From assembly GCA_963204705.1 (NCBI GenBank), contig CAUJHL010000009.1:1-38283 (forward strand): a stretch of 38,283 nucleotides of DNA, given 5' to 3'. Positions 408-36,265 of the stretch are shown here, piece by piece (the stretch's first letter is position 1; every line of letters begins with the position of its first letter). Source of the DNA: Pseudomonadota bacterium (lineage in GTDB: Bacteria > Pseudomonadota > Gammaproteobacteria > Pseudomonadales > Moraxellaceae). Position numbers and translations under genes: made by a program. The notes under the pieces are model-generated. The model searched no databases and was not told where the DNA came from. It was given only the letters and a program-made list of their open reading frames with translations.

Positions 408-491
408 TCGGGGTGCCGCCATCGGGATGATGGCTGGCGGTCGATTTTAAGCAGGAAAGCAGATCAGTGACGAGTCGTCAGAAAGGCGGTG

Positions 492-549
492 GCTGAGCCA
501 ATCACGGCTTGGCGAGCCTGAATGGCCAGTTTTTAGAGGTGCCCTATAG
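492..549. repeat. 58-bp direct repeat copy 1, probable right end of the IS5-like element
   Basis: gctgagccaatcacggcttggcgagcctgaatggccagtttttagaggtgccctatag; 57/58 identical to 3434-3491. The terminal TTTTTAGAGGTGCCC resembles an IS5-group inverted-repeat end (recalled, not searched). Confidence 0.85.
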
Positions 550-560
550 AGAGTAGTAAT

Positions 561-3002
561 ATGGATATTGTTAATGAGATTTTGAAATATTGTGAATTGC
601 TGTCTTTAAAAAATGCAAATGAGGCTGAAACTAGAAAGAAAATTATAGATAAAGTTCTGGAAGGTTTTTTGGGTTGGAATGATAATGATATTTCATATGA
701 AGAAAGGGTATCAGAGGATGGCTTGACTACTTTTGCTGATTATATTATTAGGACTGCTGATATTTCTATTTTGATTGAAGCTAAGAGAGTTGGTGTTGTT
801 TTTGGTTCGTTACCTGATAAAAGAAAAGTAAAAATTTCAGGTGCTTTTTTGCAAGGTGATACAGGTCTAGCTATAACTCAAGCGAGAGAATACTGTAGAA
901 AGAAATCCATTCCATTTGCGGTAGTAACAAATGGACTGCAATGGATTTTATTTCCTGCTGTGAGAGTGGATGGAGTGCCATTTTCTGATTCAAGTGCCAT
1001 AGTTTTTAATTCTATAGAAGATGCATTAGGAGAGAGTTCAAATTATTTTAAAAGTTTGCTTTCAAGGGATGGGGTTATTGAGGGTAATTTAACGCTGGAG
1101 CTTATAGGTCGGCGCACTGATCAGTATGAAGAGAGGAGGTTGAATAAGTTTTTTAAGGGAGGTATTAGTAAGAGGGAAAATCCAATATTTTCTCTGATAG
1201 AGAACGAGGTTTTGACTGCTTTTTCTGATTCTATAGTTGAATCTAATATTGAGGTTTTGGAGAAGTGCTACGTTAAAAATGCGGACAGAGTGAAATTTGA
1301 TAATAGAATAAAAATGCATTTACAAAGAAGAGAGCCTTTGTTTTCAGTTCAGCCTAAGAAGCCCATGAGGAAAAAAGAATCTGGCACACTGGTTGCATCA
1401 ATTAACTCCGTTAGTGCTAATAGGCGTCCATTGGCAATATTGATTTTAGGAACAGTCGGAACAGGAAAAACAACCTTTCTGCAATATACGAGGAGGGTGG
1501 CTTCCAAAGATTTTTTTCATGTTCGTGATAGTGGGTACTATCCTCATTGGATAGATGTTGACTTTAGAGGTTTTTCCAAAAATGAGTCTCCTATAGATTT
1601 TATTTACTCTAAGATTTTTGATTACATTTGCGTTGATCCTTATTTTTCTAATTATGAAAAATCCATTAAATTTTCATATGAGAAGGAAATTTCCGCTCTA
1701 AAAAAAGGGCCTTTATTTTTGATGATGAAATCTGAAGATGATTTTAATAAAAGAGTTTCCGACTTGATTATGAGTGACTATAACGAAAAAAAGCCTTATG
1801 TTGATAAACAATTAAAGTTTGCTGCTAAAAATTGCCCTGTATTTATAGTTATTGATAATGTAGATCAGTTTGAGAGTGACGATATTCAGTCTGAAATATT
1901 TTCTGATGCTATCGCAGTTGCAAGTCGAGCGAATATTAATCTCATAATGGCTATGAGAGAGTCTACTTATGTAAAACATAGAGGTTCTGCTGTTTTTGAT
2001 GCGTTTGATTTTGACCCCTTGCATGTGGAGCCACCAGAAATATTATCTGTTTTATCTAGAAGATTTTTTTTAACTAGCCAGCTTTTATCTGGGAAGAGGG
2101 GGGATTTTGTTGCATTAAATGGTGCGAGTTTTCAGGTGGATGATTTATCAATATTTATTGATATTTTAAAAAGCTCTGTATTAGGGACAGAGATTGGAGA
2201 AAGAATTGATGTTTTATCAAACCATGATGTAAGGCTTGCTCTCAGGATGACAAGAGAGTTTATATCCAGAGGTTATACTGATCCAGCTAAAGCCATCAGT
2301 GCTCATGAGACTGAGAAAAGATATACTTTGCCGAAGCAAGAGGCTTTTAGGTCTATTTTGCTAGGTAATCAATCGGTTTACAGTGAGGAGTATTCTGTAA
2401 TAGGAAATCCATTTGATTCTAGGTTGGGTAGATCTAATGGTGAGATGTTGAGATTATTTGCTTTGTCTGCTTTGGTTAATCAGGCTAGTATTAATAGCGT
2501 TGGTTATATCGATGCTCCGGATATAAAAAATATTTTTCAAAATATTGGTTTTTCTGAGTCTGATACTCTTAGGGTTTTAAATGATTTATGTAGTATGAGA
2601 TTTGTGCATACTAAATCAAATGGTAAATCTGTCTTCTCCAGTAGCTACGCTTCTACGAGGCTTGGAGGTCATATAATGCGAAATCTGTTGGGTGATTTTA
2701 CTTTTATAGAGAATGTTATGATGGATACTTTTATTTCAGATAAAGATACGTGGGAAGAGCTGAGAAGGCTATCTACTTCTATCCAAGAGGAGAGAGATGT
2801 AGTAAGTAGAGTTATACTTAGGGTAAAGAAAGTGAAGACTTTTTATTCCTATATCACGAATCAGTATACTCTCTTAGTTGATGAGGCTAAGCGAAGAAAT
2901 ATTGATCAAATATGGCTGAGTAATCCTTTGAGTGAAATGCGTGCTACTTTGGATGGCAATATGGAAAAAGCTATTGAGTCAGCACGTAGGAATTATGGAT
3001 AA
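561..3002 (+). CDS. PD-(D/E)XK-like (HsdR_N-type) nuclease domain fused to P-loop NTPase with predicted wHTH-like C-terminal region; candidate anti-phage defence protein
   Basis: 813-aa ORF. N-terminal TEAETRKK-like helix and ADYIIRTADISILIEAKRVG (D...ExK); Walker A LGTVGTGKTTF; Walker B VFIVIDNVDQF; C-terminal helical segment LFALSALVNQ..IFQNIGFSESDTLRVLNDLCSMRFV. Much more AT-rich than its flanks by eye. Confidence 0.75.
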   Translation: MDIVNEILKYCELLSLKNANEAETRKKIIDKVLEGFLGWNDNDISYEERVSEDGLTTFADYIIRTADISILIEAKRVGVVFGSLPDKRKVKISGAFLQGDTGLAITQAREYCRKKSIPFAVVTNGLQWILFPAVRVDGVPFSDSSAIVFNSIEDALGESSNYFKSLLSRDGVIEGNLTLELIGRRTDQYEERRLNKFFKGGISKRENPIFSLIENEVLTAFSDSIVESNIEVLEKCYVKNADRVKFDNRIKMHLQRREPLFSVQPKKPMRKKESGTLVASINSVSANRRPLAILILGTVGTGKTTFLQYTRRVASKDFFHVRDSGYYPHWIDVDFRGFSKNESPIDFIYSKIFDYICVDPYFSNYEKSIKFSYEKEISALKKGPLFLMMKSEDDFNKRVSDLIMSDYNEKKPYVDKQLKFAAKNCPVFIVIDNVDQFESDDIQSEIFSDAIAVASRANINLIMAMRESTYVKHRGSAVFDAFDFDPLHVEPPEILSVLSRRFFLTSQLLSGKRGDFVALNGASFQVDDLSIFIDILKSSVLGTEIGERIDVLSNHDVRLALRMTREFISRGYTDPAKAISAHETEKRYTLPKQEAFRSILLGNQSVYSEEYSVIGNPFDSRLGRSNGEMLRLFALSALVNQASINSVGYIDAPDIKNIFQNIGFSESDTLRVLNDLCSMRFVHTKSNGKSVFSSSYASTRLGGHIMRNLLGDFTFIENVMMDTFISDKDTWEELRRLSTSIQEERDVVSRVILRVKKVKTFYSYITNQYTLLVDEAKRRNIDQIWLSNPLSEMRATLDGNMEKAIESARRNYG

Positions 3003-3325: not shown

Positions 3326-3463
3326 ATGTCTCAATTTGGCTCACAAATCCGCATTCCTGCCACCTACATGCGTGGCGGTACCAGCAAAGGCGTCTTTTTC
3401 AAACTTGACGATCTGCCAGCAAGCTGCCAAGTAGCTGAGCCAATCACGGCTTGGCGAGCCTGA
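3326..3463 (+). pseudogene. prpF: prpF (2-methylaconitate isomerase-like) N-terminal fragment fused to the IS-end repeat
   Basis: MSQFGSQIRIPATYMRGGTSKGVFFKLDDLPASCQVA matches the PrpF N-terminal signature (RIPATYMRGGTSKGVFF). The frame runs into the 58-bp repeat at 3434 and stops after AEPITAWRA. Confidence 0.7.
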
Positions 3464-3491
3464 ATGGCCGGTTTTTAGAGGTGCCCTATAG
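3434..3491. repeat. 58-bp direct repeat copy 2, probable solo IS right end
   Basis: gctgagccaatcacggcttggcgagcctgaatggccggtttttagaggtgccctatag; one mismatch to 492-549; no transposase sequence adjoining. Confidence 0.85.
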
Positions 3492-5254: not shown

Positions 5255-7102
5255 GTGATGAAACCCCGCGCCCCACTCACTGCACCCCGCACGCCCCAGC
5301 GACGCAATGTCACAGCGCGTGCCAGCCTGAGTCATGACCAGTGGCGTTTTCGCATGCTGTGGGCAGCCATGGCACTGGTGTTTGGGCTGATTGTGCTGCG
5401 AGCGTTTTATCTGCAGGTCATTCAGCACGATTTTCTACAGGACAAGGCCGATGCCATGATCCTGCGTACCGACAAGGTACGGGCAATCCGGGGCATGATT
5501 ACCGATCGCAACAATGTCCCACTGGCCATCAGTACGCCCATGGTAACGCTGTGGTTTGATCCCTGGGAATACACCGAAGCCTTGCGCGATTTGCAGGAGC
5601 TGGATCAAAAAATTGCCGAAAATCCCACCAGTAAAGTATTGCGGCGCAAACGGCCCAAAACCAGTTTTGATCTGGATGCACTGGCCTTGACCGTGGGCAT
5701 GGATGCCGCTGCCCTGAAACAGCAAACGGCCATACTGGCGAAGAAACATGTCCGTTATCTGATTCTGAAACGCCAGATGCCGCCCGCAGTCGCACAAGTG
5801 GTGCTCGATCGGAAATTTCAGTCGGTGTATCGCCAGACCGATTTTCAGCGCTATTACCCGCAAGCTCAGCCCAATGCACAGCTGCTTGGCCTGACCAATC
5901 GCGCTGGCAAGGGTATCGAAGGGCTGGAAATGGCCTGGAACAAGGAGCTGGCGGGAGAGGATGGCAAGGTTCGGGTAATGCGGGACAAACGCGGCAACCG
6001 GATCAAGGACGTCGAGCAGATCAAGGCGGAAACGCCCGGCAAGGACATTCAACTCAGTATCGATTCCCGCCTGCAATACATCATGTACCGTGAACTGGCG
6101 GCGGGAGGCATTGCCAATAGTGCCCGTTCGGCGACCGCGGTCGCCCTCGATGCCAAAACCGGCGAAGTGCTGGCCATGACCAGCTGGCCATCCTTTAATC
6201 CCAATGATCCCAAGGGCCTCGACAACAAGGACGCCATGCGAAACCGTGCGGCCATTGATATGTTTGAGCCCGGTTCGACCATGAAGCCGCTGACTATCTC
6301 CGCAGCGCTGGAAACGGACAAATACCATGTCAATTCGGTGGTTAATACCTCCCCGGGCAGCATGCGGGTGGGCAATCACACCATTCGGGACCATGGCAAC
6401 AACGGGATGCTGAGTCTGGAAGGCATCATCGTGAAATCCAGTAACGTCGGTGCGGCCAAAATTGCCCTGTCCCTACCCAATAACACCTTGCCAAGTTTTT
6501 ACAAACGAGTAGGTCTGGGTGCCAAAACCGATTTGCATTTTCCCGGTGAAAGTGGCGGTCTGATTTTGCCGCAGCGCCTTTGGAATACTGCCGAAGTAGC
6601 GACGATGTCCTATGGCTATGGCCTGAATGCGACGGTGATCCAGCTCGCACAGGCTTATGCGGTGCTGGCGGGTCAAGGCATGCACTACCCGGTGACCCTG
6701 CGTAAACTCGATCATGAACCTCAGGGCGTACGGCTGCTGGATGCCGGTATTGCCAAATCCGTATTGCATATGATGGAAGGCGTGGTGTCCTCCAGTGGTA
6801 CTGCGCCACAGGCGGCGGTTCCGGGCTATCGGATTGCGGGTAAAACCGGCACGGCGCACAAGCTGCGCGCCGATGGCCGGGGCTATTCCGAATCCGAATA
6901 TCGCGCACTGTTTGTTGGAGTAGCTCCGATAAGTGATCCCCGTATCGTATTGGCGGTCGTGGTGGAAAATCCGGTGGGCCAATATTATGGGGGTCTGGTG
7001 GCGGCCCCGATTTTCTCCCGCATCATGCAGGAATCCCTGCGCCTGATGAATGTGCCGCTCGACAAGTCGCTGGAAGATGAGCAAAAGGCCAAGAAATCAT
7101 GA
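5255..7102 (+). CDS. ftsI: peptidoglycan D,D-transpeptidase FtsI (PBP3)
   Basis: FEPGSTMKPLTI (SxxK), KSSNVG (SxN), RIAGKTGTAHK (KTG). Confidence 0.95.
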   Translation: MMKPRAPLTAPRTPQRRNVTARASLSHDQWRFRMLWAAMALVFGLIVLRAFYLQVIQHDFLQDKADAMILRTDKVRAIRGMITDRNNVPLAISTPMVTLWFDPWEYTEALRDLQELDQKIAENPTSKVLRRKRPKTSFDLDALALTVGMDAAALKQQTAILAKKHVRYLILKRQMPPAVAQVVLDRKFQSVYRQTDFQRYYPQAQPNAQLLGLTNRAGKGIEGLEMAWNKELAGEDGKVRVMRDKRGNRIKDVEQIKAETPGKDIQLSIDSRLQYIMYRELAAGGIANSARSATAVALDAKTGEVLAMTSWPSFNPNDPKGLDNKDAMRNRAAIDMFEPGSTMKPLTISAALETDKYHVNSVVNTSPGSMRVGNHTIRDHGNNGMLSLEGIIVKSSNVGAAKIALSLPNNTLPSFYKRVGLGAKTDLHFPGESGGLILPQRLWNTAEVATMSYGYGLNATVIQLAQAYAVLAGQGMHYPVTLRKLDHEPQGVRLLDAGIAKSVLHMMEGVVSSSGTAPQAAVPGYRIAGKTGTAHKLRADGRGYSESEYRALFVGVAPISDPRIVLAVVVENPVGQYYGGLVAAPIFSRIMQESLRLMNVPLDKSLEDEQKAKKS

Positions 7103-10100
7103 GTATGTCAACGGTGGCCTTGCAGGAAGGGCAAAAACCCGCAGTGCGCTTAGGTGAGTTGTGCCCGGAGCTGCCGCTGAATGCCGATCTCGGTGCTCTG
7201 CCCATTCGGCGAGTGGTCAGCGATAGCCGCAAGGCCACAGCGGACAGTCTGTTTTGCGCGCTGTTGCCCGCACACCCCAGTGGCCAGCCCCTGCAGGCGG
7301 AGCTGCACCGCGAGCGGCTGAGTGGTTTTGCCCGCTCGGCCATTGGACAGGGTGCGACTGTGGTGCTGAGCCAGATTGCGCTCACCCTTCCCGAGACTCC
7401 GGATGTACCGGTCATCGTCGTGCCGGAGCTGCCGGAATGGGTGGGGCTGTTTGCTCGCCGCTGTCTGCAGGCGCATCATCCCGTTACCCCTATGCGCGTC
7501 GCGGCAGTAACCGGAACCAATGGCAAAACCACGATTTGCCGGTTACTTGCTGAAGTATTGACGCTGGCCGGCCATAAAACCGCTGTGCTGGGCACCACAG
7601 GCAATGGGATTTTGCCGGCACTGACTCCTTCCAGCCATACCACGCTGGATGCGGTGACTTTGCAGGAATATTTGCACGAATTTGCGGTGCAGGGTGCTGA
7701 ATTTGCCTGCATTGAAGCCAGCTCACACGGGCTGGATCAGGGCCGTTTGCAGGGTACGCCGATTGAAGTGGCGATGTTTAGCAATCTGACCCACGATCAC
7801 CTGGATTATCACCAGACCATGGCGCATTACGCAGCAGCCAAGGCGCGGCTGTTCGATCCTGTACGATTTCCCAGTCTGGCCAGTGCCATCGTGAATGCGG
7901 ATGATCCCCAGTCGGCCGTGCTGACCAGTCATATGCCAGACACCCTTCCGGCATGGCGGTACAGCCAGCAAGCCAATGGTGGTGCTGAATTCCGTGTCGT
8001 GGATGCAGAATATCAGCTGACGGGAGCGGTTTTGACGATCGAGACCCCGGATGGTCCCAAAGTGCTCAACAGCCCCTTGCTGGGCAAATTCAATGTGTCC
8101 AATTTACTGGCGGCGGTGGCCGCGGCGAGGGCACTCGGTCTGAGCTGGGAAAGCGTGCAGTCCGCGGTGCCTCAGCTACAGGGGGCGCCCGGCCGGATGC
8201 AGGTGGTGGATGACCCAGACCGGCTACTGGTCGTGGATTATGCGCACACGCCAGACGCACTCCAGCAGGTACTGAGCAGCCTTAGGCCACATACTGCGGG
8301 GCAGTTAAGGGTGGTGTTTGGCTGTGGCGGTGACCGTGATCGCGGCAAGCGTCCCCTGATGACCGAGATTGCGCTGAATCATGCAGATCATGTCCTGCTG
8401 ACCAGTGATAATCCGCGCAGTGAGCCGATTGGCCGCATTTTGGATGACATGATTGCGACGCTGGATGAATCCCAATTGGCAAGAATCCAGGTACAGCAGG
8501 ATCGGCGCATGGCGATCCGTCAGGCTGTGAGTCAGGCTAAAGTCGGTGATGTCGTGGTGGTCGCGGGCAAGGGCCACGAGGACTATCAGGAAATCGAGGG
8601 CGTCCGGCATTGGTTTGACGATGTGGTGGAGTTACGACAGGCACAGACAGCCTGTCTGGATGACGCTAGCCGTCTGGGGTATGCCGCCACCGCGTTTTCT
8701 TCCCCCGCCCCGTCTGGAGCACTGAGGATCAACCCCATGGTATCGACACCATCGCCCCTGTCACCAACATTGCCAGCTACGAATTTGTCGCCTATGACCT
8801 TGCCTGAGTTACAGGCGGACGTTGCGCCCTGGAATCCCGATACCCTGCAACAGGCAACGGGTGGGGTATGGCAGGGTGATCTGTCGCAGCCCATTAGCGC
8901 CTGGCGAATTCAGACCGATACCCGTGCGATTCAGCCTGGAGATATTTTTCTGGCGCTAAAAGGCGAGCGTTTTGACGGCCACCAGTTTGCCCTGCAGGCC
9001 ATTGCAAAAGGAGCTGTGGCGCTCCTTGTCAGCGAGACCTTGCCAACCCCGGCTCCGCAACTGGTCGTGAGCGACACACGTCTGGCGCTTGGCCAGTTAG
9101 GGCAATATCACCGCTTGCGCATGCCGGATCTGAGCGTGGTGGCGCTCACGGGTTCCAGTGGTAAAACCACCACCAAGGAAATGCTGGGCAGTATTGTGTC
9201 GCTGGCCGGCCCGACACTGATGACGCGGGGCAATCTGAATAACGATCTTGGCGTGCCCATGATGTTGCTGGAGCTGATGCCCAGCCATCGCTATGCGGTC
9301 ATGGAGCTGGGTGCCAATCACCGGGGTGAAATCGCCTATACCACCCAGCTGGTGCAGCCACAGGTGGCCGCGGTGCTGAATATTGGCACAGCGCATCTGG
9401 GTGAGTTTGGCGGCCGTGAAGGCATTGCCCATGCCAAAAGTGAGATTTTTCAGGGACTGTCGCCTACCGGCATTGCGGTATTGCCCCGGCAGGTGGATTA
9501 CAGTGAAATTTTGCAGGAAGCCGCCCAGAACCAGCCGATTCTTGAATGGGGCGACGGCGCGGAAGTGTGTGCCAGTGATATTGAATTGCTCCCAGACAGC
9601 AGCCGGTTTGTCCTGAATTATCAGAGTGCCCAGCAACCCATTCAGTTGCCGTTTGCAGGTCGGCACAATGTGGATAATGCGCTGGCAGCGGCCAGCATGG
9701 CGCTCGCGCTGGGTATGACGATGGACATCATTGCGCGCGGACTGGCCAGCGCCACCACGATTAAGGGCAGGTTGGTCTTTCATCGGAAGAATGGCATGAC
9801 CCTGATTGACGATACCTATAATGCCAACCCTCATTCGGTGCTGGCAGCGGCTAAAGTGCTCAGTACCCAGGCGGGCCAGCGCTATCTGCTGCTCGGTGAT
9901 ATCGCCGAACTGGGTGAGGAATCGCGGCAGGAGCATTACCGGCTTGGTACCCAGCTGGCTGCACTCCCTTTGGCCGGTTTGCTGTGTGTGGGGGAGTTTG
10001 CACCCGATACCGTTGCCGGAGCACAGGCCCATGGAATGGCCGCGGCGCAGGCATTTGAAAACAAAGAAGCCTTACTGGCTCAACTTCAGACGCGGCTGTC

Positions 10101-10191
10101 CCTGGGTAGCGATCCGCTGGCAGTTCTGATCAAAGGGTCGCGTAGCGCCCGAATGGAAACCCTTGTTGATGCTTTGCTGGAGAAGTCCTGA
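7099..10191 (+). CDS. murE-murF: fused UDP-MurNAc-L-Ala-D-Glu ligase MurE and UDP-MurNAc-tripeptide-D-Ala-D-Ala ligase MurF in one ORF
   Basis: MurE-type [20 protein letters not shown] and [28 protein letters not shown] in the first half. MurF-type [45 protein letters not shown] in the second half. The ORF is uninterrupted across 1030 aa. Confidence 0.9.
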
Positions 10192-11502: not shown

Positions 11503-12246
11503 ATGACGACCATGGCGATCCCCATCGCTCATTTGGGTGCTGCACCCGCCTCACATTCCCACAGTGAGCTGTATTATTGCCGTACGCCCGAAGGTCAGGT
11601 AGAGCTGGCCAGTCGTAGCGGCATTCTATCCCCCCGATTACGCCAGCTACTGGTATTGATCGGACAGCCGGATGGAGCACAGAACGCGCTGTTCCGTGGT
11701 CTGGCCACCCCCGAACGTCTGCAGGCGCTTTTGTCTCTGGGTTTCATTTCTTCGCTTCCGATGGCGGAATGGAGGGGTCGGGAGCTGCCTGCCACACCTA
11801 CGCTGATGGACACACAGACAGGCTCGCAAGCGGACATGCCCGCACAGTGGAACATCACACTGGCCGAATTGAGTCAGGCCCTGTATGAGCCCCACGATGA
11901 AAAGCAGTATGAACCCCAGCAGGTACCACAGGAAACGCCACCACCCGTTCCAGTGCATGCTCCAGCGACTGCAAAAACCTCGCAACTGCTTGAAGTAGCA
12001 GAATTGCCACTGGACGGTTTGCCCAGCCTCCAGCATTTTATGTCGCACTGCCTACAACAGGCCTGCGGATTGTTGGCGGCCAGTCAGATGATGGATATCG
12101 ATCGTGCGCATGACCTGCAGATGCTGGGTCGATTGCAGGCACGCTGGAAAATGACCTTGCTGGATTCGCGCTACGATCGCATCGCTCTGGAACGGTGGAT
12201 CGCGCGGGTACGCGAATCGTTCCAGCTACTGCAGGGCGATTACTAA
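11503..12246 (+). CDS. hypothetical protein
   Basis: ORF 11443..12246; ATG at 11503 (MTTMAIPIAHLGAAP) after a likely promoter/leader region. No recognised domain. Confidence 0.6.
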   Translation: MTTMAIPIAHLGAAPASHSHSELYYCRTPEGQVELASRSGILSPRLRQLLVLIGQPDGAQNALFRGLATPERLQALLSLGFISSLPMAEWRGRELPATPTLMDTQTGSQADMPAQWNITLAELSQALYEPHDEKQYEPQQVPQETPPPVPVHAPATAKTSQLLEVAELPLDGLPSLQHFMSHCLQQACGLLAASQMMDIDRAHDLQMLGRLQARWKMTLLDSRYDRIALERWIARVRESFQLLQGDY

Positions 12247-26001: not shown

Positions 26002-27216
26002 TTATTCTGTGCCTGACCGACTCGCAATCAGGGTGACCGCCTGATAGGGCCCCAGACGTTCACCCAATACGTCGACACCCGTGCCCAGCTCACTGGCCAG
26101 CGCTCTCAGGGCGGCCGTTTCTGGCGCATCAGCGGTTTTTAACAAAATCCGGTCGGGTGCTCGTCGTAACAGGGCGCGGGTAGCCTCCGCCAGCCCGGGT
26201 TTAATGCGATTACGATTGCTGATTTGGTAATGTTCAGCGAGTGCATTAATCGTTTCACGGGACCAGCGTTGTTGGTGAAGTCTATCGGTCTCGGACCATT
26301 GAGCGGGCAGGCAGGCAGGATCACCGGAAGAAACCAGCGCCTGTCGTAACTGATCCAGATGCTCAATGACTCGCTGGCTTTGATCGTGGGGAGCCAGCTC
26401 GGGGTAGCTGGTACAGCCATGCCAGTCCGTGGGAGTGTCCTCCAGACAGACACTACGGGACAGTAGGCCAGAGACGGTTGCTCCCATCAGGCCGGTAGGA
26501 ATCAGCCAATCCTCCGCGCTGGCACACAGCCAGGCTTCGCCGGCGGGATCGGCGAGCGTCACCAGTCGCAGGCGTCCACACTCACGGGGAAAGCGATTAT
26601 CCCCTGCCAGGCTGTGTTCCAGTTCCTGACTGATCGCCCCTTTACCGGTCCAGCCATCGACGAAATAGAGGGTCTGGGCCCCATGGCGACTGACAATTGC
26701 CTCCAAAGCCAGCGCATCAATTCCGCGATCCCTGAGAATACTAATCCCATAATGCACACAGGGCATTCCCAGTGAACGAATGGCGCGTGCCAGCAAAATC
26801 CCCAACGGAACGCCAGCCCGTACCAGACTGACCAGCACCAGAGGATTGGGGGACCGCCCGGCAGGCAATGATTGAGACTGATAATGGCTCACCAGTTGCA
26901 AGGCCAGCTGTTGAACTTCCCGTACCATACGCTCACCCCCTTGGGCCAGTGCTTGCTGAAACGCAGAAGCCAGCCGATCCGAAGGCGGGGATTCCCGCGT
27001 GATCATGCGGGAGTAATGTTGTTGGCCGGTTTGAATAAGACGTTCCTTTTCCGCAATCGGGGTGCTTTCCAGAGTCAGGAGCCGCAACAAGAATTGGACT
27101 TCACCTATGGAGTAGCTGCCTGTGAGGGCGCCAGGCAGGGCGTCATGCAGGCTATTAGACTGGTCAGAGCTGTCGAGCTTTTCAGTCGTTTCGGCAGTGA
27201 CGGTTAGTTTAGTCAT
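26002..27216 (-). CDS. StiP-like (PRTase-type) protein with C-terminal PELOTA-like domain, Ter cluster
   Basis: YSIGEVQFLLRLL..., LVSLVRAGVPLGILLARAIRSLG.PCVHYGISILRDRGID, YFVDGWTGKGAISQEL, C-terminal RNRIKPGLAEATRALLRRAPDRILLKTAD. ATG 27216. Confidence 0.75.
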   Translation of the reverse strand: MTKLTVTAETTEKLDSSDQSNSLHDALPGALTGSYSIGEVQFLLRLLTLESTPIAEKERLIQTGQQHYSRMITRESPPSDRLASAFQQALAQGGERMVREVQQLALQLVSHYQSQSLPAGRSPNPLVLVSLVRAGVPLGILLARAIRSLGMPCVHYGISILRDRGIDALALEAIVSRHGAQTLYFVDGWTGKGAISQELEHSLAGDNRFPRECGRLRLVTLADPAGEAWLCASAEDWLIPTGLMGATVSGLLSRSVCLEDTPTDWHGCTSYPELAPHDQSQRVIEHLDQLRQALVSSGDPACLPAQWSETDRLHQQRWSRETINALAEHYQISNRNRIKPGLAEATRALLRRAPDRILLKTADAPETAALRALASELGTGVDVLGERLGPYQAVTLIASRSGTE

Positions 27217-28063
27217 GCCAATACCCTCCGGCCTGCTCAAGGTGGCTGGCCAGCTGTTGCCCAACCCAGTGATCCAACTGACTGGCTGCCGGCATGCCCC
27301 ACCAGTCACACTGCTGTAAAAAGGCACAATCCGACAACGAGTCTCCGAGACCAATCACCGGTTGATCCGGCTGGGAGATTTGCGGGAGCAGATAAGCCAC
27401 TGCCTCTGCTTTACCAATCCCTTCAGGAATCAGCGCCAGCGTGACGCCATTGCGATGCAGATAACAGCCAGCCAGCAGTTCTGGCGGCAGCCACTGCATA
27501 AACTCGGTGAGAAATAAGGGTAAGTGGCGAGACTGGCGAACCACGCCGTACACAATCAGGCCATTTTCCCGTTGCAATTGAACGCGCAAGGCATCCATGG
27601 GCAGTGTCTGTCCGGGGAAATGGGCGGCTAAAAACGTGAGGCCCAGTTCTGGCAGGGACTCATACCATGTCGTCAGACTGGCTTGTAAGGGCGTTATGAG
27701 CGACAGGGTCCGTTGCCACCAGACCGGATCCGGCTGGTCAGGCTGCTGTAAAATGACAGCGCCGTGTGCACAGATGGCTGGAAAGGGCAGCTCTAGCTGT
27801 ACGCGTGCCAGGCCTTCACTGCTGCGTGCTGTCACCGGAACCAGCCGGGCATGCTGCTGGAGCCAGCGCCACCAGTGCCACTGACGGGCAGACATCATCC
27901 CCAGGGGCTGGCCGTGCTGATCATGGGTAGCGGTCGCTTTTGGGTCGAGTCCCCTGCTGGCCAATCGACGGCCAGTCTGAAACAGGGTGTCGTCCAGATC
28001 GACCAGAAAAAGGGGAGGCAGTGGAGAGTCTGACAACTGCGTGGCGAGGGGCAAGCTAGTCAC
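27209..28063 (-). CDS. HAD-superfamily phosphatase of Ter cluster
   Basis: LFLVDLDDTLFQTGR, PVTARS, PVIGLGDSLSDCAFLQQCDW. GTG start overlapping the upstream TGA (GTGA). Confidence 0.8.
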   Translation of the reverse strand: MTSLPLATQLSDSPLPPLFLVDLDDTLFQTGRRLASRGLDPKATATHDQHGQPLGMMSARQWHWWRWLQQHARLVPVTARSSEGLARVQLELPFPAICAHGAVILQQPDQPDPVWWQRTLSLITPLQASLTTWYESLPELGLTFLAAHFPGQTLPMDALRVQLQRENGLIVYGVVRQSRHLPLFLTEFMQWLPPELLAGCYLHRNGVTLALIPEGIGKAEAVAYLLPQISQPDQPVIGLGDSLSDCAFLQQCDWWGMPAASQLDHWVGQQLASHLEQAGGYWHD

Positions 28064-29415
28064 GTCTCCTTGCCCCCCAGCACGACTAGCCCTGGCAAGG
28101 CAGCCAGCAAGGCGGGGTCTACACTGGCTGTGTCTGTTTCTACCATCAGGAACATGCGGTCGTAGTCCGCAGGCACAATGTTGTACACAAAATTGGGCAT
28201 GCCAAGTCCGTAATTGTCCTGAAATGCCAGCTGGTGCTGAATGGCGTGTCCGCGCGCGATGGGGGATCTGGTGGTGGCAGCAACAGAGACCCGAGCTCCC
28301 TGTCTGGCCAATGCCTCTGCCAGCAGGAATGGCGGCCACACGTATTCACTACTGCCCAGCACCAGAATGCGTTCACCGGGCTGTGCCTTCAGCAGCGGCA
28401 GTTTTCCCTGATCCGTAAGGCCTGTCGGCACCCGTCCCCAGTCGGCGGGACGGCAAATTGGCCATGCACCGCGGGCGACAGTATCGACCTTAGGCATCTC
28501 GGGCAGGTCGGCACGCGGATTATCCTGCCAGCGCCAATGCCCCTGTAACAGACTCACCCGCTGCCAGTGAGGAAATGCGGGAAACACAGGTTGCGACCAA
28601 TCGGTCAGGGTCGCTGTGATGATATGTTCTAACTGATCGAGTCCAGCGGATTGCAGGGCGGCGACCAGATGCTGAAAAGTCTGACCCGTTGAGGCTTCAT
28701 CATCTACCAAAATCAGGCTCCGCGTAGCCAGTAGCCGCTGCTGTACCTCAGGGTCAGGCGATCCATAGAGCAAATGCGCTGGCGCATGGCTGTGGGTTTC
28801 CTCAAATCGGCACCACAGTGGTGCCTCAGCGTCGGGCAGAGGATGGCGGGTACTGGCCAGGTACAGTGCCTCGGGATAGGGGCCTTGCCGCAAGGCTCGA
28901 TGCACACCGGCGCCGAGCGCAACGGCTGTTTCTGCCATGCCAATCACCAGCACCGGCCCGGGCAAATGGGTGGGAATGCGGGCAGCCAGTGCATTCCAGG
29001 CCGCATTCATGCGCTCGGGAGAGACCGGGATGTGACGCCCCAGCACTTTCGAGACAAACAGAAAAGCCCGACGAGGGTTGATGCGTTCGGCAAACCCAAA
29101 CAGCGCATCGGCTGTCCAGCCATCCGACGGCGAGCTGGGGGTGTCATTGTCTCGGTAGGGCTTGCTTTCGCGGTCGTTGCGCTCACCGCCCTGAACGCTG
29201 GCTGTGGAGGATGTCGGGTTAGATGTCGCGGCGGGAAGCAGGGTTAACTCAAGAATCCCGCGAGACAGTACACAAGTGCTTGTCACAGAAAGGCTGGAAG
29301 CCAGCACAGGATCAGGAGTATGGTCTGGTGAAAAATCAGACTGGGGGTCATCCAGGCGCTCAGGCAGAATGTCCGGTAGCGCGTCCGGCTGGGAATCAGG
29401 CAAAGAAACAGTCAT
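28060..29415 (-). CDS. phosphoribosyltransferase with TRSP-type C-terminal domain, Ter cluster
   Basis: VLVIGMAETAVALGAGVHRAL, SLILVDDEASTGQTFQHLVAAL (PRPP-binding loop), ERILVLGSSEYVWPPFLLAEALARQG, IQHQLAFQDNYGLGMPNFVYNI. Confidence 0.8.
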   Translation of the reverse strand: MTVSLPDSQPDALPDILPERLDDPQSDFSPDHTPDPVLASSLSVTSTCVLSRGILELTLLPAATSNPTSSTASVQGGERNDRESKPYRDNDTPSSPSDGWTADALFGFAERINPRRAFLFVSKVLGRHIPVSPERMNAAWNALAARIPTHLPGPVLVIGMAETAVALGAGVHRALRQGPYPEALYLASTRHPLPDAEAPLWCRFEETHSHAPAHLLYGSPDPEVQQRLLATRSLILVDDEASTGQTFQHLVAALQSAGLDQLEHIITATLTDWSQPVFPAFPHWQRVSLLQGHWRWQDNPRADLPEMPKVDTVARGAWPICRPADWGRVPTGLTDQGKLPLLKAQPGERILVLGSSEYVWPPFLLAEALARQGARVSVAATTRSPIARGHAIQHQLAFQDNYGLGMPNFVYNIVPADYDRMFLMVETDTASVDPALLAALPGLVVLGGKET

Positions 29416-29477
29416 AACTCACGCATAAATAAACTAGTAAAGACAGAAGCCGCAGTGCAGCGCCCGGTTTGCAGCAG

Positions 29478-30788
29478 TCAGCGCTCACACTCCAACAACC
29501 ACACCGATCCTTGTGCCTGTCGCACCATGGTATTGCCGCTTTGGGCAGAAACCGGCGGGGCCGTAGGGCTGGGGAAATGACTCGGGTCGATATCCGCCGA
29601 TTCCAGCAGGGCCGCAATCAGCTGGTGGCGTACCGCAAAATTCATGTTTTGTGCTGAACTGATGCTGGAAATCGCCATGGCGATGACCTGGCCCTGGGTA
29701 TTCAGCAGCGGGGATCCACTGGATCCGGGCTGTATGGGGGCGGTGAATTGCAAAAAGCGCAAATCCTGATTAATACCCCGCAACGCGGCAATACATCCCT
29801 GCGTCACCTGCAACTGGTTTCCCATGATCCCGGAGAGGGGGTAGCCTAGCGTGGTGAGAGACTCGCCCAGGGACAAGGGCACGCTCTGGGCCAGAGTCAG
29901 CCATTGTTTCAGGGGGGCGTCGTTGTAGGGAGTGTCCAGCTTTAACAGCGCCAGATCGCAGCCTTCATCCAGCGTAATGACCTGTACGGCAAAGCGTCCC
30001 TGCAGAGACTGCGCCGTAATGCGGCGGGCCTGATCGGCCACATGGGCACACGTCACCAGATGACAGGGTGAAATGGCAAAAGCGGTTCCGGTCCAGGCGT
30101 CTGGCAGCGGGTTGCCGTGACGGTCATAGCCCGGTCGGCGCTCACCATTGCCCGGCTGGCCTTGACCATGGCCCGTATTTCCTGATGCGCTGCCCTGCGA
30201 TAAAGTGCGGGGCGAACGCTCATCCAGTGCCAGTTGCATCCGCAGGCCCAGCGCAGCCAGACCCATAGGCGACCCTTCGGCCAGCGCACGCATTTTCCAT
30301 TGATTCTGGCGCAGGTAAATTTCCAGACAGATCATCGCGCGATCGGCACTTTGGTCAATGGCAGGCACATAACAGACGTGGTCAGCACCCGACGGCCCAG
30401 TCAGGCAGTTTAGGCTAAGCTGAGCGCCAGACTGCTCAAGAGTGCCGGTCTGGTCGTAGCGATAGGCCACCAGCAGCAAGTGGCGGACGCTAGCAAAGCG
30501 TTGCTGCAGTTGGGCCAAATCCAGTTGCCACTCCGCCTGTTGCGGATTGCCCTCAATCTGGATCCAGTCGGGCACTTCGTGCAAATACGCAGGCGCCATC
30601 ACCGGTTTGCGCGCTTCGTCCAGCACCAGCCAGACCAGCCCCAGCTCCTCTGCCAGCCAGTCCCGGTTTGCCCCGCGCGGACTGGAAAGGGTGGCTTTCA
30701 GGCAAAGACGGGCTTGGTCGGGCAGGGTCGTATTGGCACCCGTTACCAGCTCGGTGGCAGAGGCTGAAGGGGGGTTAGGGGGGGTCAT
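29478..30788 (-). CDS. TerD-domain fused to trypsin-like serine protease
   Basis: N-terminal TerD features (LLLVAYRYDQTGTLEQSGAQLSLNCL.., CLEIYLRQNQWKMRALAEGSPMGLAALGLRM). C-terminal protease triad CAHVAD (His), DEGCDLALLKLD (Asp), QPGSSGSPLLNTQGQVIAM (Ser). Confidence 0.85.
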   Translation of the reverse strand: MTPPNPPSASATELVTGANTTLPDQARLCLKATLSSPRGANRDWLAEELGLVWLVLDEARKPVMAPAYLHEVPDWIQIEGNPQQAEWQLDLAQLQQRFASVRHLLLVAYRYDQTGTLEQSGAQLSLNCLTGPSGADHVCYVPAIDQSADRAMICLEIYLRQNQWKMRALAEGSPMGLAALGLRMQLALDERSPRTLSQGSASGNTGHGQGQPGNGERRPGYDRHGNPLPDAWTGTAFAISPCHLVTCAHVADQARRITAQSLQGRFAVQVITLDEGCDLALLKLDTPYNDAPLKQWLTLAQSVPLSLGESLTTLGYPLSGIMGNQLQVTQGCIAALRGINQDLRFLQFTAPIQPGSSGSPLLNTQGQVIAMAISSISSAQNMNFAVRHQLIAALLESADIDPSHFPSPTAPPVSAQSGNTMVRQAQGSVWLLECER

Positions 30789-31900
30789 CCGGTGACTCCT
30801 TCTGGCTGCTGGGCGCGTGGCGTGCCCGGCGGGCTGTTGCGGTCCGGTGCCGGAATGGGGATGGGCAGGTCAACGACCCGCACCCATAGTGGCTGTAAGT
30901 AATTGATCGGTAAGGAAATTCCTAGCCGGTTGGCCACCATGATCGCTGGCAAATTCAGGCCACACGCCAAACCATAGCCAATCCCGCCCGAAGGACGGGC
31001 ATTGATTTCAAGCAGATGCGGCGTGCCGTCAGCGTCTTCGCGTAACTGGACATTGACCAGTCCGTCGCACTTAAATTCGTCCACAGCACGCACGGCCAGA
31101 TCGACGACCGCCTGTTCACGCGGGGTGACGTGGTGTGTCTGCTCCGGTAACCAGGGGCTGATATGCTGCATGCTGTCAATCTTGGTCCGGATCGCGGCAG
31201 CCAGCGTCTTGCCGTCAAGCACGACCAGATCGACGGAATATTCCTGCCCTGATAAAAAGGGCATCACCAGATAGGGCTTGGGATCCAGCGCATAAGCCTG
31301 AACAAATTGTTCAGGATGGACCTGTCGGTTATCGGGCTGCGCAAAGGCATAAAAGGGACTGACTTCGGGGTTGAGCACCCAGAAACCCGCGGCATACACG
31401 CCCTTGACTGGTTTCACGCACAGCCGTTCGTTGCCGGCTGCGGCCATGGCTTGCTGCAGCTCGTCCCGACTTCGCACCACGGTGGCTGGTGTTACTGCCA
31501 GTCTGGCGTGTTCACAGCGCTGGATAAACAGGGCCTTGTCATCCATGGCCTCAAAATCTGCCAGTGAGAGTGCGCCACTGATCAGCTGGCAGCCTGACTG
31601 TGCCAGCGCCTGACGCAGAGGCTCGTAATCGCGACCGGATTGTCCGGCATGCAGCAGGCTGATGTTATGCACTCTGACCTGTTCCATCACCCAGTCCAGC
31701 CGTGCCCGTTTGCCCATGGGTTCCTGCAGGGCATGATCGGCCAGGGACGTTATTTCCGGGCGATGCTGGGCATGGGAGGCCAGTTGATATAACTGAGGCA
31801 GCGCCGAACGGGTCGCTTTGATCAGCTCCCGCTGGCTGGCATGCCCTTTTAACCACCAGAGGCTGGGGGTTGAGGTAGAGTGCGCTATCGGGGTCTGCAT
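30785..31900 (-). CDS. ATP-grasp family protein of Ter cluster
   Basis: LCVKPVKGVYAAGFWVL, YLVMPFLSGQEYSVDLVVLDGK, CDGLVNVQLREDADGTPHLLEINARPSGGIGYG. Confidence 0.85.
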   Translation of the reverse strand: MQTPIAHSTSTPSLWWLKGHASQRELIKATRSALPQLYQLASHAQHRPEITSLADHALQEPMGKRARLDWVMEQVRVHNISLLHAGQSGRDYEPLRQALAQSGCQLISGALSLADFEAMDDKALFIQRCEHARLAVTPATVVRSRDELQQAMAAAGNERLCVKPVKGVYAAGFWVLNPEVSPFYAFAQPDNRQVHPEQFVQAYALDPKPYLVMPFLSGQEYSVDLVVLDGKTLAAAIRTKIDSMQHISPWLPEQTHHVTPREQAVVDLAVRAVDEFKCDGLVNVQLREDADGTPHLLEINARPSGGIGYGLACGLNLPAIMVANRLGISLPINYLQPLWVRVVDLPIPIPAPDRNSPPGTPRAQQPEGVTG

Positions 31901-32001
31901 GATGGTCAGGGTCTGAAAAGGGAGAAAAAGAAATGAAAAAGGCGAATTATTGGGTTTAAAAACCGGATGTTAGGATAGTCGTTGGTCATTTGTCCAGCCG
32001 A

Positions 32002-32023
32002 CACGTCATCCGCACGTCATCCG
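32002..32023. repeat. exact tandem 11-mer repeat in divergent Ter promoter region
   Basis: cacgtcatccg cacgtcatccg. Confidence 0.85.
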
Positions 32024-32196
32024 AGCTTAGCCCACTCGTCGCCACCCCACAGCGACTCCTGCGTCTTCACGCGGGTCATGGGGCTTGCACTGGCGACTAG
32101 GGTGGCATAACTGCCCGCAGGCCGCAATTCTCTGCACAGGGAAAGTCGTGCTACCGGTCAGGATCGCAAGCGATGTGCTTCAGCCGTTTTCTCGTT

Positions 32197-32222
32197 CGCT
32201 GACTGACTCGCTGGCTGACTCG
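32197..32222. repeat. imperfect tandem 12-mer in divergent Ter promoter region
   Basis: cgctgactgact cgctggctgact cg. Confidence 0.8.
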
Positions 32223-32268
32223 TTGTCTACACGGGCAGACAGCGCTGGCAGATAGCGTTTTTTACATC

Positions 32269-32297
32269 TTTTCATTCGCGCAGCGATGGCCTATAAC
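32269..32297 (+). promoter_or_regulatory. candidate sigma-70 promoter for forward ter operon
   Basis: TTTTCA, 17-nt spacer, TATAAC, about 34 nt upstream of the terD start codon. Confidence 0.4.
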
Positions 32298-32330
32298 CTG
32301 TACACGGATTTTTAAAAAAGGATCAGCGTG

Positions 32331-32906
32331 ATGGCACTCAGTCTTTCCAAGGGCGGCAATCTCTCACTCAGCAAAACAGACCCCAGTCTCAAGCGCATTT
32401 TGGTGGGACTCGGCTGGGACCAGCGGGCGACCGATGGTAATGAATTTGACCTCGACGCCAGTGCATTTTTATTGACCAGTCAGGGTAAAGTGCGAGGCGA
32501 GCACGATTTTATTTTTTACAATCAATTGCGTGCTGCGGATGGGTCGGTAGAGCATACCGGCGACAATCGCAGTGGCGCAGGCGACGGTGATGATGAAGTC
32601 ATCAAGGTCAATTTGGACAAGATTGCCGCGGATGTGGATAAAATCGCCATTACCGTGACTATCCATGATGCGGAGAGTCGCCGACAGAATTTTGGCCAGA
32701 TCGCCAATGCGTTTATACGCGTTGTGAATGAAGACACTAATGCAGAAATTGTCCGTTTTGACCTCGCGGAGGATTACTCCACCGAAACGGCCATGATTTT
32801 TGGGGAAATTTATCGCCATAACGGTGAATGGAAATTCCGCGCCGTGGGTCAGGGTTATGCGGGTGGATTAGCGGCCATGTGCGGCCAGTTCGGGCTTAAC
32901 CTCTGA
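32331..32906 (+). CDS. terD: TerD family protein
   Basis: [89 protein letters not shown]. Confidence 0.93.
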
Positions 32907-33055
32907 GGGCTTGCGACCTTTTCAGCTCAGACAATGGCAGACTCTACCCCGGGTCTGTCGCGTGTACCTGCGATACGATTTATGACAAACGAAACATTAA
33001 CTTTCTGTCATTATTGGGCTCCAAACTCTGCGTTCGGGGTTTTAGTGGATTTAAC

Positions 33056-34123
33056 ATGATGAAACATTTTGGTTTTTCGATCGCCTTTTCGGTGATCTGT
33101 CTGGCCATTGCTGGCTATTGGGGCCTGTCGCATGGCGGTGTCAATGCCATGTTGTCAGCTCTGTTTATCACGGCCGTTCTGGCGGTGATGGAAGTCTCCC
33201 TGTCCTTTGACAATGCGGTGGTCAATGCGTCCGTACTGCGGGACTGGGACGAATTCTGGAAAAAGCTGTTTTTGACCGTGGGTATTCTGGTCGCAGTGTT
33301 TGGTATGCGCTTGCTGTTCCCACTGGTGATTGTGGGCGTTACGGCCGACATGGGGCTGATGGAAGTTGCGCGGCTGGCACTGGATAATCCCAAAGAGTAT
33401 TCCGCCAAACTGATTTCGCACCATGAAGAAATTTCCGCCTTCGGGGGGATGTTCCTGTTGCTGGTATTCCTGAACTTTTTCTTTGATGACAGCAAGGACG
33501 AGCACTGGTTCCACAGCCTGGAAACTCGTCTGGCCAAGCTGGGTAGTATTGACGCCATGTCGATTTTTGTCGCACTGGTGGCCTTAATGCTAATGCTGGG
33601 TCTGGTCGAGCCGGCAAAACAGTTCGTAGTCCTGAGCGCAGGCCTCTGGGGCATTATCGTCTACGTCGGGGTCAATGTACTTGGCTATATGCTGGAAGGC
33701 AGCGACGACGAAACGCTGAAGGACGGTGAAGACACGCCAGTTGCCTCACCGGGCAGCAGTAAAGTGGTCAAGGCGGGTATCGGGGGTTTCCTGTACCTGG
33801 AAGTGCTGGATGCGTCGTTCAGTTTTGACGGCGTGATCGGCGCATTTGCCATTACTAATGACGTCATCATCATCATGCTGGGCCTGGCTATCGGCGCTAT
33901 TTTTGTGCGTTCCATGACGGTGTATCTGGTGGAAAAGGGTACGCTGGATGCCTATCAGTATCTGGAGCATGGAGCGCATTATGCGATCGGTGCACTGGCG
34001 GCGATTATGTTACTGAGTATGAAATTTCACATTCCAGAGGTCATTACCGGACTGATTGGGGTGGCATTTATCGTGTGGTCGGTGCTAGCCTCGATTGCAC
34101 AGCGAAAACGCGAGACGGCATGA
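33056..34123 (+). CDS. TerC/DUF475-like integral membrane protein
   Basis: Polytopic; VMEVSLSFDNAVVNASVL, EVLDASFSFDGVIGAFAITNDVIIIMLGLAIGAIFVRSMTVYLVEKG (duplicated acidic TM motifs of the TerC superfamily). Confidence 0.85.
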   Translation: MMKHFGFSIAFSVICLAIAGYWGLSHGGVNAMLSALFITAVLAVMEVSLSFDNAVVNASVLRDWDEFWKKLFLTVGILVAVFGMRLLFPLVIVGVTADMGLMEVARLALDNPKEYSAKLISHHEEISAFGGMFLLLVFLNFFFDDSKDEHWFHSLETRLAKLGSIDAMSIFVALVALMLMLGLVEPAKQFVVLSAGLWGIIVYVGVNVLGYMLEGSDDETLKDGEDTPVASPGSSKVVKAGIGGFLYLEVLDASFSFDGVIGAFAITNDVIIIMLGLAIGAIFVRSMTVYLVEKGTLDAYQYLEHGAHYAIGALAAIMLLSMKFHIPEVITGLIGVAFIVWSVLASIAQRKRETA

Positions 34124-34174
34124 TCTTAAGGCCGCTCGTAACTTAAATTTAAAGCATTAACCTGGAGAAAAAAC

Positions 34175-34750
34175 ATGGCAATCAGCCTGCAAAAAGGTGG
34201 CAACGTCAACCTGTCCAAAGAAGCCCCTGGCATTCAGAACGTCACTATCGGCCTCGGCTGGAACCCTCGTGCAACTGACGGTCAGGCCTTTGACCTGGAT
34301 GCCGTTGTGTTCATGCTGGGCGCGAACGACAAAGTTCGCAGCGATGCAGATTTCATCTTTTACAACCAATCCAAATCCACTTGCGGCTCAGTAGTGCATC
34401 AGGGCGATAACCGCACGGGCGATGGCGATGGCGATGATGAAACTGTCCTGATCGACCTGTCCAAAGTGCCTGCGGATGTCAACAAGGTGATTTTTGGTGT
34501 GACGATCCATGATGGCCAGCAACGTGGCCAGAACTTCGGTCAGGTCAGCAATGCCTACATTCGTGTAGTGAACAATGCCGGTGGCAGCGAAGTCGCCCGT
34601 TATGACCTGTCTGAAGACAGCAGCACCGAAGCCGCGATGATTTTCGGTGAGTTGTACAAAAACAACAATGAGTGGAAATTCCGCGCCGTTGGCCAGGGCT
34701 TCCAGGGGGGCCTCGGCCCGCTGGCAGGCTCTTATGGCGTGAATGTCTGA
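34175..34750 (+). CDS. TerD family protein (TerD/TerE-like)
   Basis: [71 protein letters not shown]. Confidence 0.93.
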
Positions 34751-34770
34751 GTGCAGACCTGAGTGAGAGG

Positions 34771-34793
34771 CACCCGCTACGGCGGGTGTTTTT
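34771..34793 (+). terminator. rho-independent terminator
   Basis: CACCCGC tacg GCGGGTG followed by TTTTT. Confidence 0.75.
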
Positions 34794-34864
34794 CCATGCA
34801 GCCTGTGATGGGCCAATGACGCGTTTAGGGTTTCATTTTTCTCCAAAATCGGAACAGTTGAATT

Positions 34865-35596
34865 ATGCCTACATTTAGTCTGGTGGGTACCCCGGATCCT
34901 TTTTTACATGTCACCATGCGCCGGGGCGAAACCATTTATTGCGAAAGCAATGCCATGGTCATGATGGAAGACGTGCTTGAGTTGAAAGGCAAACTGCAGG
35001 GTGGGCTGGTCGCGGCCCTGGCGCGTCGCTTTGCCAATGACGAATCCCTGTTTCAGCAGCATATCGAAGCCGTACGTGGTGATGGTGACTGTCTTCTGGC
35101 CCCGACGCTGGATGGGGATATGCAGATACTCGATGTCGGTCCACGGCAGTACACCCTGAGTGATGGGGCTTTTGTGGCCGCGACCAGTGGGGTCGATATC
35201 AAGGTCAAAATGCAGGGGCTGGGTGCTGCCCTCTTTGGGGATACCGGTGGCTTTCTAGTGATGCATACCAGCGGTCAGGGCCAACTCGTGGTCAACGGCT
35301 ATGGCACCTTGTTTGAAATCGACGTGGTGCCGGGCAAGGACACCCTGATCGACAATGGCCATATCGTGTGCTGGGATTCCACGCTGCAACACGAAATGTC
35401 GGTCTCGACCACCCGTGGCGGCATGATCGGCAATCTCGTCAATAGCCTGACCAGCGGCGAAGGCATGATCATGCGATTCAAGGGGCAGGGCAAGGTGGTC
35501 GTGTGCTCACGCAACCGTAACAGCCTGCTGACCTGGCTGACTTCCAAGCTGCCGGGGATGAGCAATAACAACAGCAATAGCCAGCGTCTGTTTTAA
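34865..35596 (+). CDS. AIM24 / TIGR00266-like family protein
   Basis: MRRGETIYCESNAMVMMEDVLELKGKLQGGLVAALARR..FVAATSGVDIKVKMQGLGAALFGDTGGFLVMHTSGQGQLVVNGYGTLFEIDV. Confidence 0.75.
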   Translation: MPTFSLVGTPDPFLHVTMRRGETIYCESNAMVMMEDVLELKGKLQGGLVAALARRFANDESLFQQHIEAVRGDGDCLLAPTLDGDMQILDVGPRQYTLSDGAFVAATSGVDIKVKMQGLGAALFGDTGGFLVMHTSGQGQLVVNGYGTLFEIDVVPGKDTLIDNGHIVCWDSTLQHEMSVSTTRGGMIGNLVNSLTSGEGMIMRFKGQGKVVVCSRNRNSLLTWLTSKLPGMSNNNSNSQRLF

Positions 35597-35677
35597 CGGA
35601 GAGGGGCTGACTTTCTGCTTTATTCCATGATCAAACCAAAAGCAACAACGATTAATTAACCTGTGGAGTAATTACTA

Positions 35678-36265
35678 ATGGCACTGAATCTGGAAAAGGG
35701 ACAAAAGATTTCCCTGAATAAAGAAGCGGGTGGCGCACTGTCCATTGTGCGGATGGGTCTGGGCTGGGATGTGGCCAAATCCAAGGGCATGCTGGGAGGC
35801 CTGTTTGGCGGCGGAGGTGACAGTATTGATCTGGATGCCTCCTGCCTGATGTTTGATGAGCAAGGCAGCCTGAAGGATGTGGTGTGGTTTCGCCAGCTGC
35901 GCAGCAATGATGGCAGTATTCAGCATTCCGGTGACAACCGGACGGGCGCCGGGGATGGCGATGATGAAACCATCACGGTCGATCTGAATAAAGTGCCTGC
36001 GACGATCAAGACGCTGGTATTTACCGTGAACAGTTTTTTGGGCCAGAGCTTTGACAAGGTCGCCAATGCGTTTTGTCGCGTGGTGAATCATAGCAACAAT
36101 CAGGAAATCGCCCGCTATAACCTGTCCTGTCAGGGAGCGCATACCGCGCTGGTCGTCGCCAAGCTATACCGTCACAACGGTGAGTGGAAAATGGCGGCAC
36201 TGGGCGAAAGCTCCAGCGGTCGTACATTTAACGATATGATGCCGGTGATTACGGGTCATCTGTAA
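35678..36265 (+). CDS. TerD-family protein, TerZ-like
   Basis: ISLNKEAGGALSIVRMGLGWDVAKSKGMLGGLFGGGGDSIDLDASCLMFDEQG..VFTVNSFLGQSFDKVANAFCRVV: the LFGGGG insert is typical of TerZ. Confidence 0.85.
   Translation: MALNLEKGQKISLNKEAGGALSIVRMGLGWDVAKSKGMLGGLFGGGGDSIDLDASCLMFDEQGSLKDVVWFRQLRSNDGSIQHSGDNRTGAGDGDDETITVDLNKVPATIKTLVFTVNSFLGQSFDKVANAFCRVVNHSNNQEIARYNLSCQGAHTALVVAKLYRHNGEWKMAALGESSSGRTFNDMMPVITGHL

Follow-up and report, generated by a model that had tools for sequence, protein, structure and literature searches.

The window, by which we mean the whole 38,283-nt stretch of DNA analysed here, carries near its left end a single gene that joins a predicted nuclease to a predicted ATPase (Table 1). 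The reading frame of this gene is intact and has exactly the position, strand, and length of 813 residues given in the original prediction; its ATG start is credible, as the N-terminus of the protein agrees with those of its relatives. The gene is also AT-rich, as had been noted, with a GC content of 34.6% against 55.7% over window positions 3501-38283.

Table 1. Features at the left end of the window (positions are those of the window).
Feature	Position	Strand	Evidence
DDE (IS5-type) transposase, 3' part, truncated by contig start	9-287	+	PF01609, 3.9e-8
IS right end, immediately 5' of gene	489-549	+	repeat comparison, other IS copies
Nuclease-ATPase gene, 813 aa, ATG start	561-3002	+	ORF list, profile match
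HsdR-like PD-(D/E)XK nuclease domain, residues about 1-180	561-1100	+	alignment, fold matches, Pfam
Helical linker, residues about 181-270 (low confidence 257-269)	1101-1370	+	AlphaFold2 model
ORC1/Cdc6-type P-loop ATPase core and lid, residues about 271-615	1371-2405	+	Pfam, alignment, model, Foldseek
Winged-helix-like segment, residues about 626-698	2436-2654	+	model, ORC1/Cdc6 fold matches
C-terminal helical tail, one long helix (residues 747-778)	2655-2999	+	model
prpF 5' remnant	3326-3430	+	PF04303, 8.9e-11
Second IS right-end copy (remnant), splits prpF	3431-3491	+	97% identity to 489-549

The gene sits between two remnants of the same IS5-type insertion sequence (IS), and the IS-derived repeats that had been described as its boundaries are real: they are direct repeats of 61 bp, of which the right-hand copy is a bare IS end without the rest of the element. 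The contig start falls within the IS, and the left flank of the gene in the window is IS sequence. Further fragments of this IS occur on three other contigs of the same genome (C16, C112, and C40), and homology with the other IS copies stops at position 544, only 16 bp 5' of the ATG. An IS end so close to the start codon suggests that the native promoter of this copy has been replaced by IS sequence, and the forward strand shows no promoter-like site at positions 300-560; the copy may therefore be transcribed from the IS or not at all. Judged from the sequence, its expression is doubtful. Elsewhere in the genome, contig C58 carries a 50-bp stretch similar (86%) to the prpF fragment.

Several other features were observed in the window. 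A division and cell wall cluster includes a single ORF of 1030 aa that contains two Mur ligase modules, an apparent MurE-MurF fusion (7099-10191). A tellurite/stress cluster (26002-36265) contains several TerD genes, a TerC/DUF475 protein, and StiP with a PELOTA domain, and within it a trypsin-like peptidase and a partial TerD domain form one fusion protein (29478-30788). Lastly, an ORF resembling the C-terminus of an RHS-repeat protein, with the start motif GVYYNRARYYDQSIGRFTQMDTWEG, lies on the reverse strand (37243-37965); its tail matches no Pfam family.

Domain architecture and conserved residues

The N-terminal domain is confirmed by structural modeling to have the PD-(D/E)XK (restriction-endonuclease-like) fold, of the HsdR type, with putative DNA cleavage activity. 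Structure prediction had been proposed as a check on this fold, and the top Foldseek match to the isolated domain (model pLDDT 80) is HsdR (3h1t; probability 1.00, E 6.6e-4), followed by weaker matches to BpuSI, Hjc, and Cas4; the best viral match to the full-length model is a phage protein with an HsdR N-terminal domain. The Pfam match to HSDR_N_2 (1.9e-4) lies under the curated cut-off. In an alignment of 48 proteins, with identity down to 19%, the invariant positions on the nuclease side are E21, R25, E47, D60, Y61, E73, A74, K75, Q107, Y111, N124, and G125, which comprise the putative active-site elements E21, D60, E73-A-K75, and Q107xxxY111 together with N124-G125.

The same alignment has invariant positions from the ATPase onward at G297, G300, G302, K303, D432, N433, D435, Q436, Q443, R466, P492, R501, R558, S612, N616, and D722. 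These include residues of Walker A (297-303) and of the DNxDQ form of Walker B (432-436), as well as R466, R501, and R558, the last within a (G/H)DxRxAL motif that we take to be the sensor-2 signature of archaeal Orc1/Cdc6. The D..ExK core, Walker A, and Walker B named in the original prediction are thus all present, and their invariance across the 48 aligned sequences argues that they are not chance occurrences.

On the basis of the full-length AlphaFold2 model (pLDDT 86.2, pTM 0.80), the ATPase is assigned to the ORC1/Cdc6 kind, with a winged helix, and ATPase activity is predicted. Against the PDB, Foldseek returned Cdc6 (1fnn, 7.3e-7), and DNA-bound Orc1 (2qby and 2v1u), with further matches to Apaf-1, ORC subunits, TnsC, CED-4, plant NRC3, and RdrA (1.7e-4). 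The TM-scores over the full length are low (0.14-0.25, normalized to query length), as is expected of a multidomain query, and the matches are accordingly read as evidence of fold class. Pfam recorded a partial match to KAP_NTPase (5.5e-6, covering 2-169 of 293 positions) with a score of 26.3 against a cut-off of 20. The ORC1/Cdc6 matches cover the ATPase and the C-terminal domain together, and the segment at residues 626-698 is modeled as helices and a beta hairpin, both of which bear out the wHTH-like C-terminal segments proposed earlier. The C-terminal tail, modeled mostly at pLDDT above 90, is a candidate sensor or oligomerization segment. No TPR or other repeat array, and no Avs-like repeat sensor, is seen in the model, and the protein stops at 813 aa. 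The proposal of a nuclease-NTPase fusion stands, and the sensor-2 GDxRxAL motif and the winged helix place the ATPase with the ORC1/Cdc6 kind rather than with repeat-bearing Avs/STAND proteins.

These features bear on two alternative accounts of the protein. In the first, it acts as an Avs/STAND-like receptor whose C-terminal helices bind a conserved phage protein, such that ATP-bound oligomers activate the nuclease and all DNA is degraded (abortive infection). The fold matches to Apaf-1, CED-4, and plant NRC3, the position of R466 at a STAND-like sensor site, and the order of domains (nuclease effector N-terminal, ATPase central) agree with such a receptor, whereas the short C-terminus without TPR or other repeats does not, and the invariant sensor-2 arginine of GDxRxAL is ORC/Cdc6-like; we consider this account possible, at clearly less than even odds. 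In the second, the protein is a type IV-like (modification-dependent) or replication-structure-specific restriction enzyme, whose ATPase and winged helix load directly onto foreign DNA and whose HsdR-like domain cuts there, without abortive infection. One homolog is indeed annotated as a 'predicted type IV restriction endonuclease', the nuclease is HsdR-like, the ATPase has DNA-loading kin in ORC1/Cdc6 and TnsC, and the gene is solo, with no methylase partner. Set against this, the Pfam search detected none of the modified-base readers SRA, ASCH, EVE, or PUA, and no SF2 helicase/translocase domain such as HsdR has. We consider this account, too, to be at clearly less than even odds.

Distribution and genomic context of the family

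Residues 4-791 of the protein match phrog_14719 (PHROGs v4, unknown function) at 8.1e-140, and by this sequence criterion the protein is a member of that family. Family members occur at 49 loci in GTDB representatives, on 15 IMG/VR contigs, in 25 plasmid records, and also in genomes of the order to which the window belongs, spanning seven phyla (Pseudomonadota, Bacteroidota, Acidobacteriota, Verrucomicrobiota, Spirochaetota, Campylobacterota, and Thermodesulfobacteriota). Genome contigs were matched by an alignment query; a single-protein query found no match. A tblastn search of 50,697 phage records returned no family member, so the known members are those of prophages, plasmids, and chromosomes. 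Two relatives of 886 aa whose HsdR_N-type start differs (L042, 9633-12293, and L043, 9549-12209, reverse strand), one of which adjoins P2-like tail genes, form a second branch of the family and were excluded from the alignments.

The family spreads horizontally and its occurrence is sporadic. Among near relatives, the gene is present in 2 of 38 (the genome of the window being counted), and within the phylum in 4 of 399 genomes; 5426 E. coli genomes, searched twice, gave 8 full-length matches each time. The closest rows in the tree come from Pseudomonas, Methylobacter, and another family of the window's order; Alkanindiges, from the window's own family, is not among them. The GC content of the gene is below that of its flanks at 38 of 39 loci, and the frame is disrupted by stops or frameshifts at five to six of 54. 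Two Pseudomonas copies at unrelated sites share a stretch of 2,765 bp, and one of 2,561 bp is common to a plasmid of Enterobacter and a prophage of E. coli, in both cases the gene with short flanks. Since such near-identical or similar copies have only this in common, the transferred unit appears to be one gene with about 30-200 bp on each side, and its ends are not alike from pair to pair.

A unit this small could suggest a selfish one-gene mobile element that copies itself by means of a TnsA-like nuclease and a TnsC-like ATPase. TnsC is among the fold matches, and similar inverted 15-bp sequences flank Pseudomonas copies; conversely, the unit has variable ends and no fixed target, TnsA is not among the listed fold matches of the nuclease domain, and the gene recurs in prophage cargo slots, all of which leaves a selfish element very improbable. 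The inverted 15-bp sequences (TGACTGCTTTGGGTC / AGACCGCTTTTGGCC) were observed near both ends of three Pseudomonas copies (L052, L053, and L055), at about 8740-8820 and 11513-11603, and perhaps reflect a MITE-like carrier.

The original prediction noted that no companion gene accompanies this copy, and clustering of the neighboring ORFs extends this to the family, with no recurrent partner across 73 loci; the commonest neighbor families reach five loci and belong to the prophage backbone (DUF977, portal). Homologs confined to housekeeping contexts would have spoken against a role in defense. Many chromosomal copies are in fact lone AT-rich inserts among housekeeping genes (guaA, gyrB, lepA, glyS), with no defense island, but homologs also occur in prophages, on plasmids, and beside defense genes. 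Some copies adjoin an integrase, one adjoins a restriction-modification pair, and one is carried by a Klebsiella phage-plasmid. Another lies next to the portal and terminase genes in a P2-like prophage, matching the cos-adjacent antiviral hotspot reported previously (PMC9122126).

The E. coli copies lie in two lambdoid prophage types, Rac-like and Qin/DicB-like. In the Rac-like prophages, the gene is on the strand opposite to the adjoining phage genes and occupies the slot between DUF977 (found in 4181 of 5426 E. coli genomes) and DUF1367 (in 1,324 genomes). In other E. coli strains, this slot holds defense-related cargo in three of six prophages, a small sample picked by hand from a spread list, and other or no cargo in the remaining three. 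The defense-related cargo comprises, in one strain each, PD-Lambda-2_C-like and cll-like genes, a ThsA/LmuA-like SIR2 gene with a CARF_ADA-like deaminase, and a 1210-aa Tmn-like protein (1e-66). The slot thus accepts defense genes, with the phrog_14719 family as one of its occupants. As an observation in its own right, the slot (L117-L122) is a prophage defense hotspot whose cargo varies by strain.

That the gene serves the maintenance or replication control of a phage or plasmid, and not defense, is improbable. Such a role would suit the presence of the gene in prophages and phage-plasmids, and origins would be a conceivable target of an ORC/Cdc6-like ATPase; yet nearly all prophages of the same type lack the gene (8 full-length matches per search, compared with the 4181 E. 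coli genomes with DUF977), many chromosomal copies are solo, and the nuclease site is invariant.

Immediate neighbors of the family identified with PADLOC include SIR2, HerA, SduA (Shedu), AriA-like, RT-Toprim, MTase_II, PDC-S02, and PDC-S04. At 1e-15, PADLOC matches were found for at least 8 of 146 immediate-neighbor ORFs and about 2 of 130 distal ORFs, a difference that is not significant (p = 0.11). With this p value, and with counts taken from family tables, the enrichment is treated as supportive, and its use as proof on its own was dropped. The neighborhood analysis proposed earlier thus showed no significant enrichment of defense genes next to the family, and it placed copies in prophage slots (P2-type cos-side and lambdoid) that also hold them.

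Relation to known systems

PADLOC gave no strong match to the protein, the only one being DrmMI (1e-4) in the nuclease region, with no Avs, Tmn, or Qat profile, and sequence searches of NCBIfam and the PDB likewise gave nothing strong. The claim that the protein is undescribed thus holds for PADLOC 2023, Pfam, and NCBIfam. The 2026 DefensePredictor report (PMC13092281) describes 13 validated PD-(D/E)XK systems and seven P-loop NTPase systems, and these may include a member of the phrog_14719 family. That family is homologous to the window protein over its full length, i.e., the two are one family, although as defined in PHROGs it has no assigned function and is limited to phage and prophage members.

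Combinations of ORC/CDC6-clade conflict ATPases with REase domains are already known from counter-invader systems (PMC10853773). The window protein shares with these an ATPase of that clade, a restriction-like nuclease, and a wHTH, but the known systems have a C-terminal REase (kin of CR-effectors) or are multi-gene HerA/FtsK, Dnd, or BREX operons, whereas here the nuclease is N-terminal and HsdR-like and the gene is solo. Similar to Avs/AVAST STAND NTPases, the protein is the product of a single gene, with an N-terminal nuclease, a central ATPase, and STAND/Apaf fold kinship; it differs from them in its length of 813 aa, the lack of a repeat sensor, and the presence of the ORC/Cdc6 sensor-2 motif and winged helix. 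The N-terminal domain of type I HsdR provides the closest nuclease fold (3h1t) and the QxxxY motif, but the SF2 helicase and the HsdM/HsdS partners of type I restriction are missing. The KAP NTPases (Tmn, QatA) are linked to the protein by the partial Pfam match over the cut-off and by the Tmn-like gene in the same prophage slot, yet neither a Tmn/Qat profile match nor a recurrent partner was found and the fold search prefers ORC/Cdc6. RdrA of RADAR has a matching ATPase fold (1.7e-4), while the window protein has its own nuclease and no RdrB deaminase partner. GiPD474, a single-gene ATPase defense of prophages, was considered as a relative and ruled out, being a ParA-like protein.

The family accessions were not mentioned in the literature found, and no literature on HsdR-like island systems was recovered. 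In the libraries and literature searched, we found no solo gene joining an N-terminal HsdR-like nuclease to an ORC/Cdc6-type ATPase.

Proposed mode of action

The prophage hotspots and defense neighbors strengthen the original proposal of a stand-alone defense effector. We put the probability at roughly 80 to 85% that the gene encodes a single-gene effector against phages (mobile elements), one that travels as cargo of prophages, plasmids, and small insertions. The protein would stay inactive until infection supplies a cue, most probably phage DNA or a replication structure engaged by the winged helix and the ATPase, or a phage protein to which the helical C-terminus binds. This cue would bring about ATP-dependent oligomerization similar to that of ORC/Cdc6, TnsC, and Apaf-1. 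The N-terminal nucleases, once clustered, would switch on DNA cleavage, and either the phage DNA would be destroyed or the cell killed.

Gating of DNA cleavage by oligomerization is, we infer, somewhat better than an even prospect, while no one particular trigger reaches even odds. DNA as part of the cue is favored by the ORC/Cdc6 features and the winged helix, and the kinship to Apaf/CED-4 leaves room for a protein cue. More tentatively still, the ORC1/Cdc6-type ATPase might itself sense incoming DNA or the replication of that DNA and directly license the attached HsdR-like nuclease; were this so, a replication-initiator fold would serve as a DNA-sensing restriction switch with no need of a methylase, guide, helicase, or partner.

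The protein joins, in only 813 aa and with no detectable partners, an ATPase of the replication-initiator type and a nuclease of the restriction type. If validated as a defense effector, it would represent a compact and readily transferred immune gene that ranges from plasmids of Enterobacteriaceae to Bacteroidota, as well as a simple model of effector gating by ORC/Cdc6-STAND ATPases. The analysis also points to the DUF977-DUF1367 slot of Rac-like prophages as a source of defense genes.
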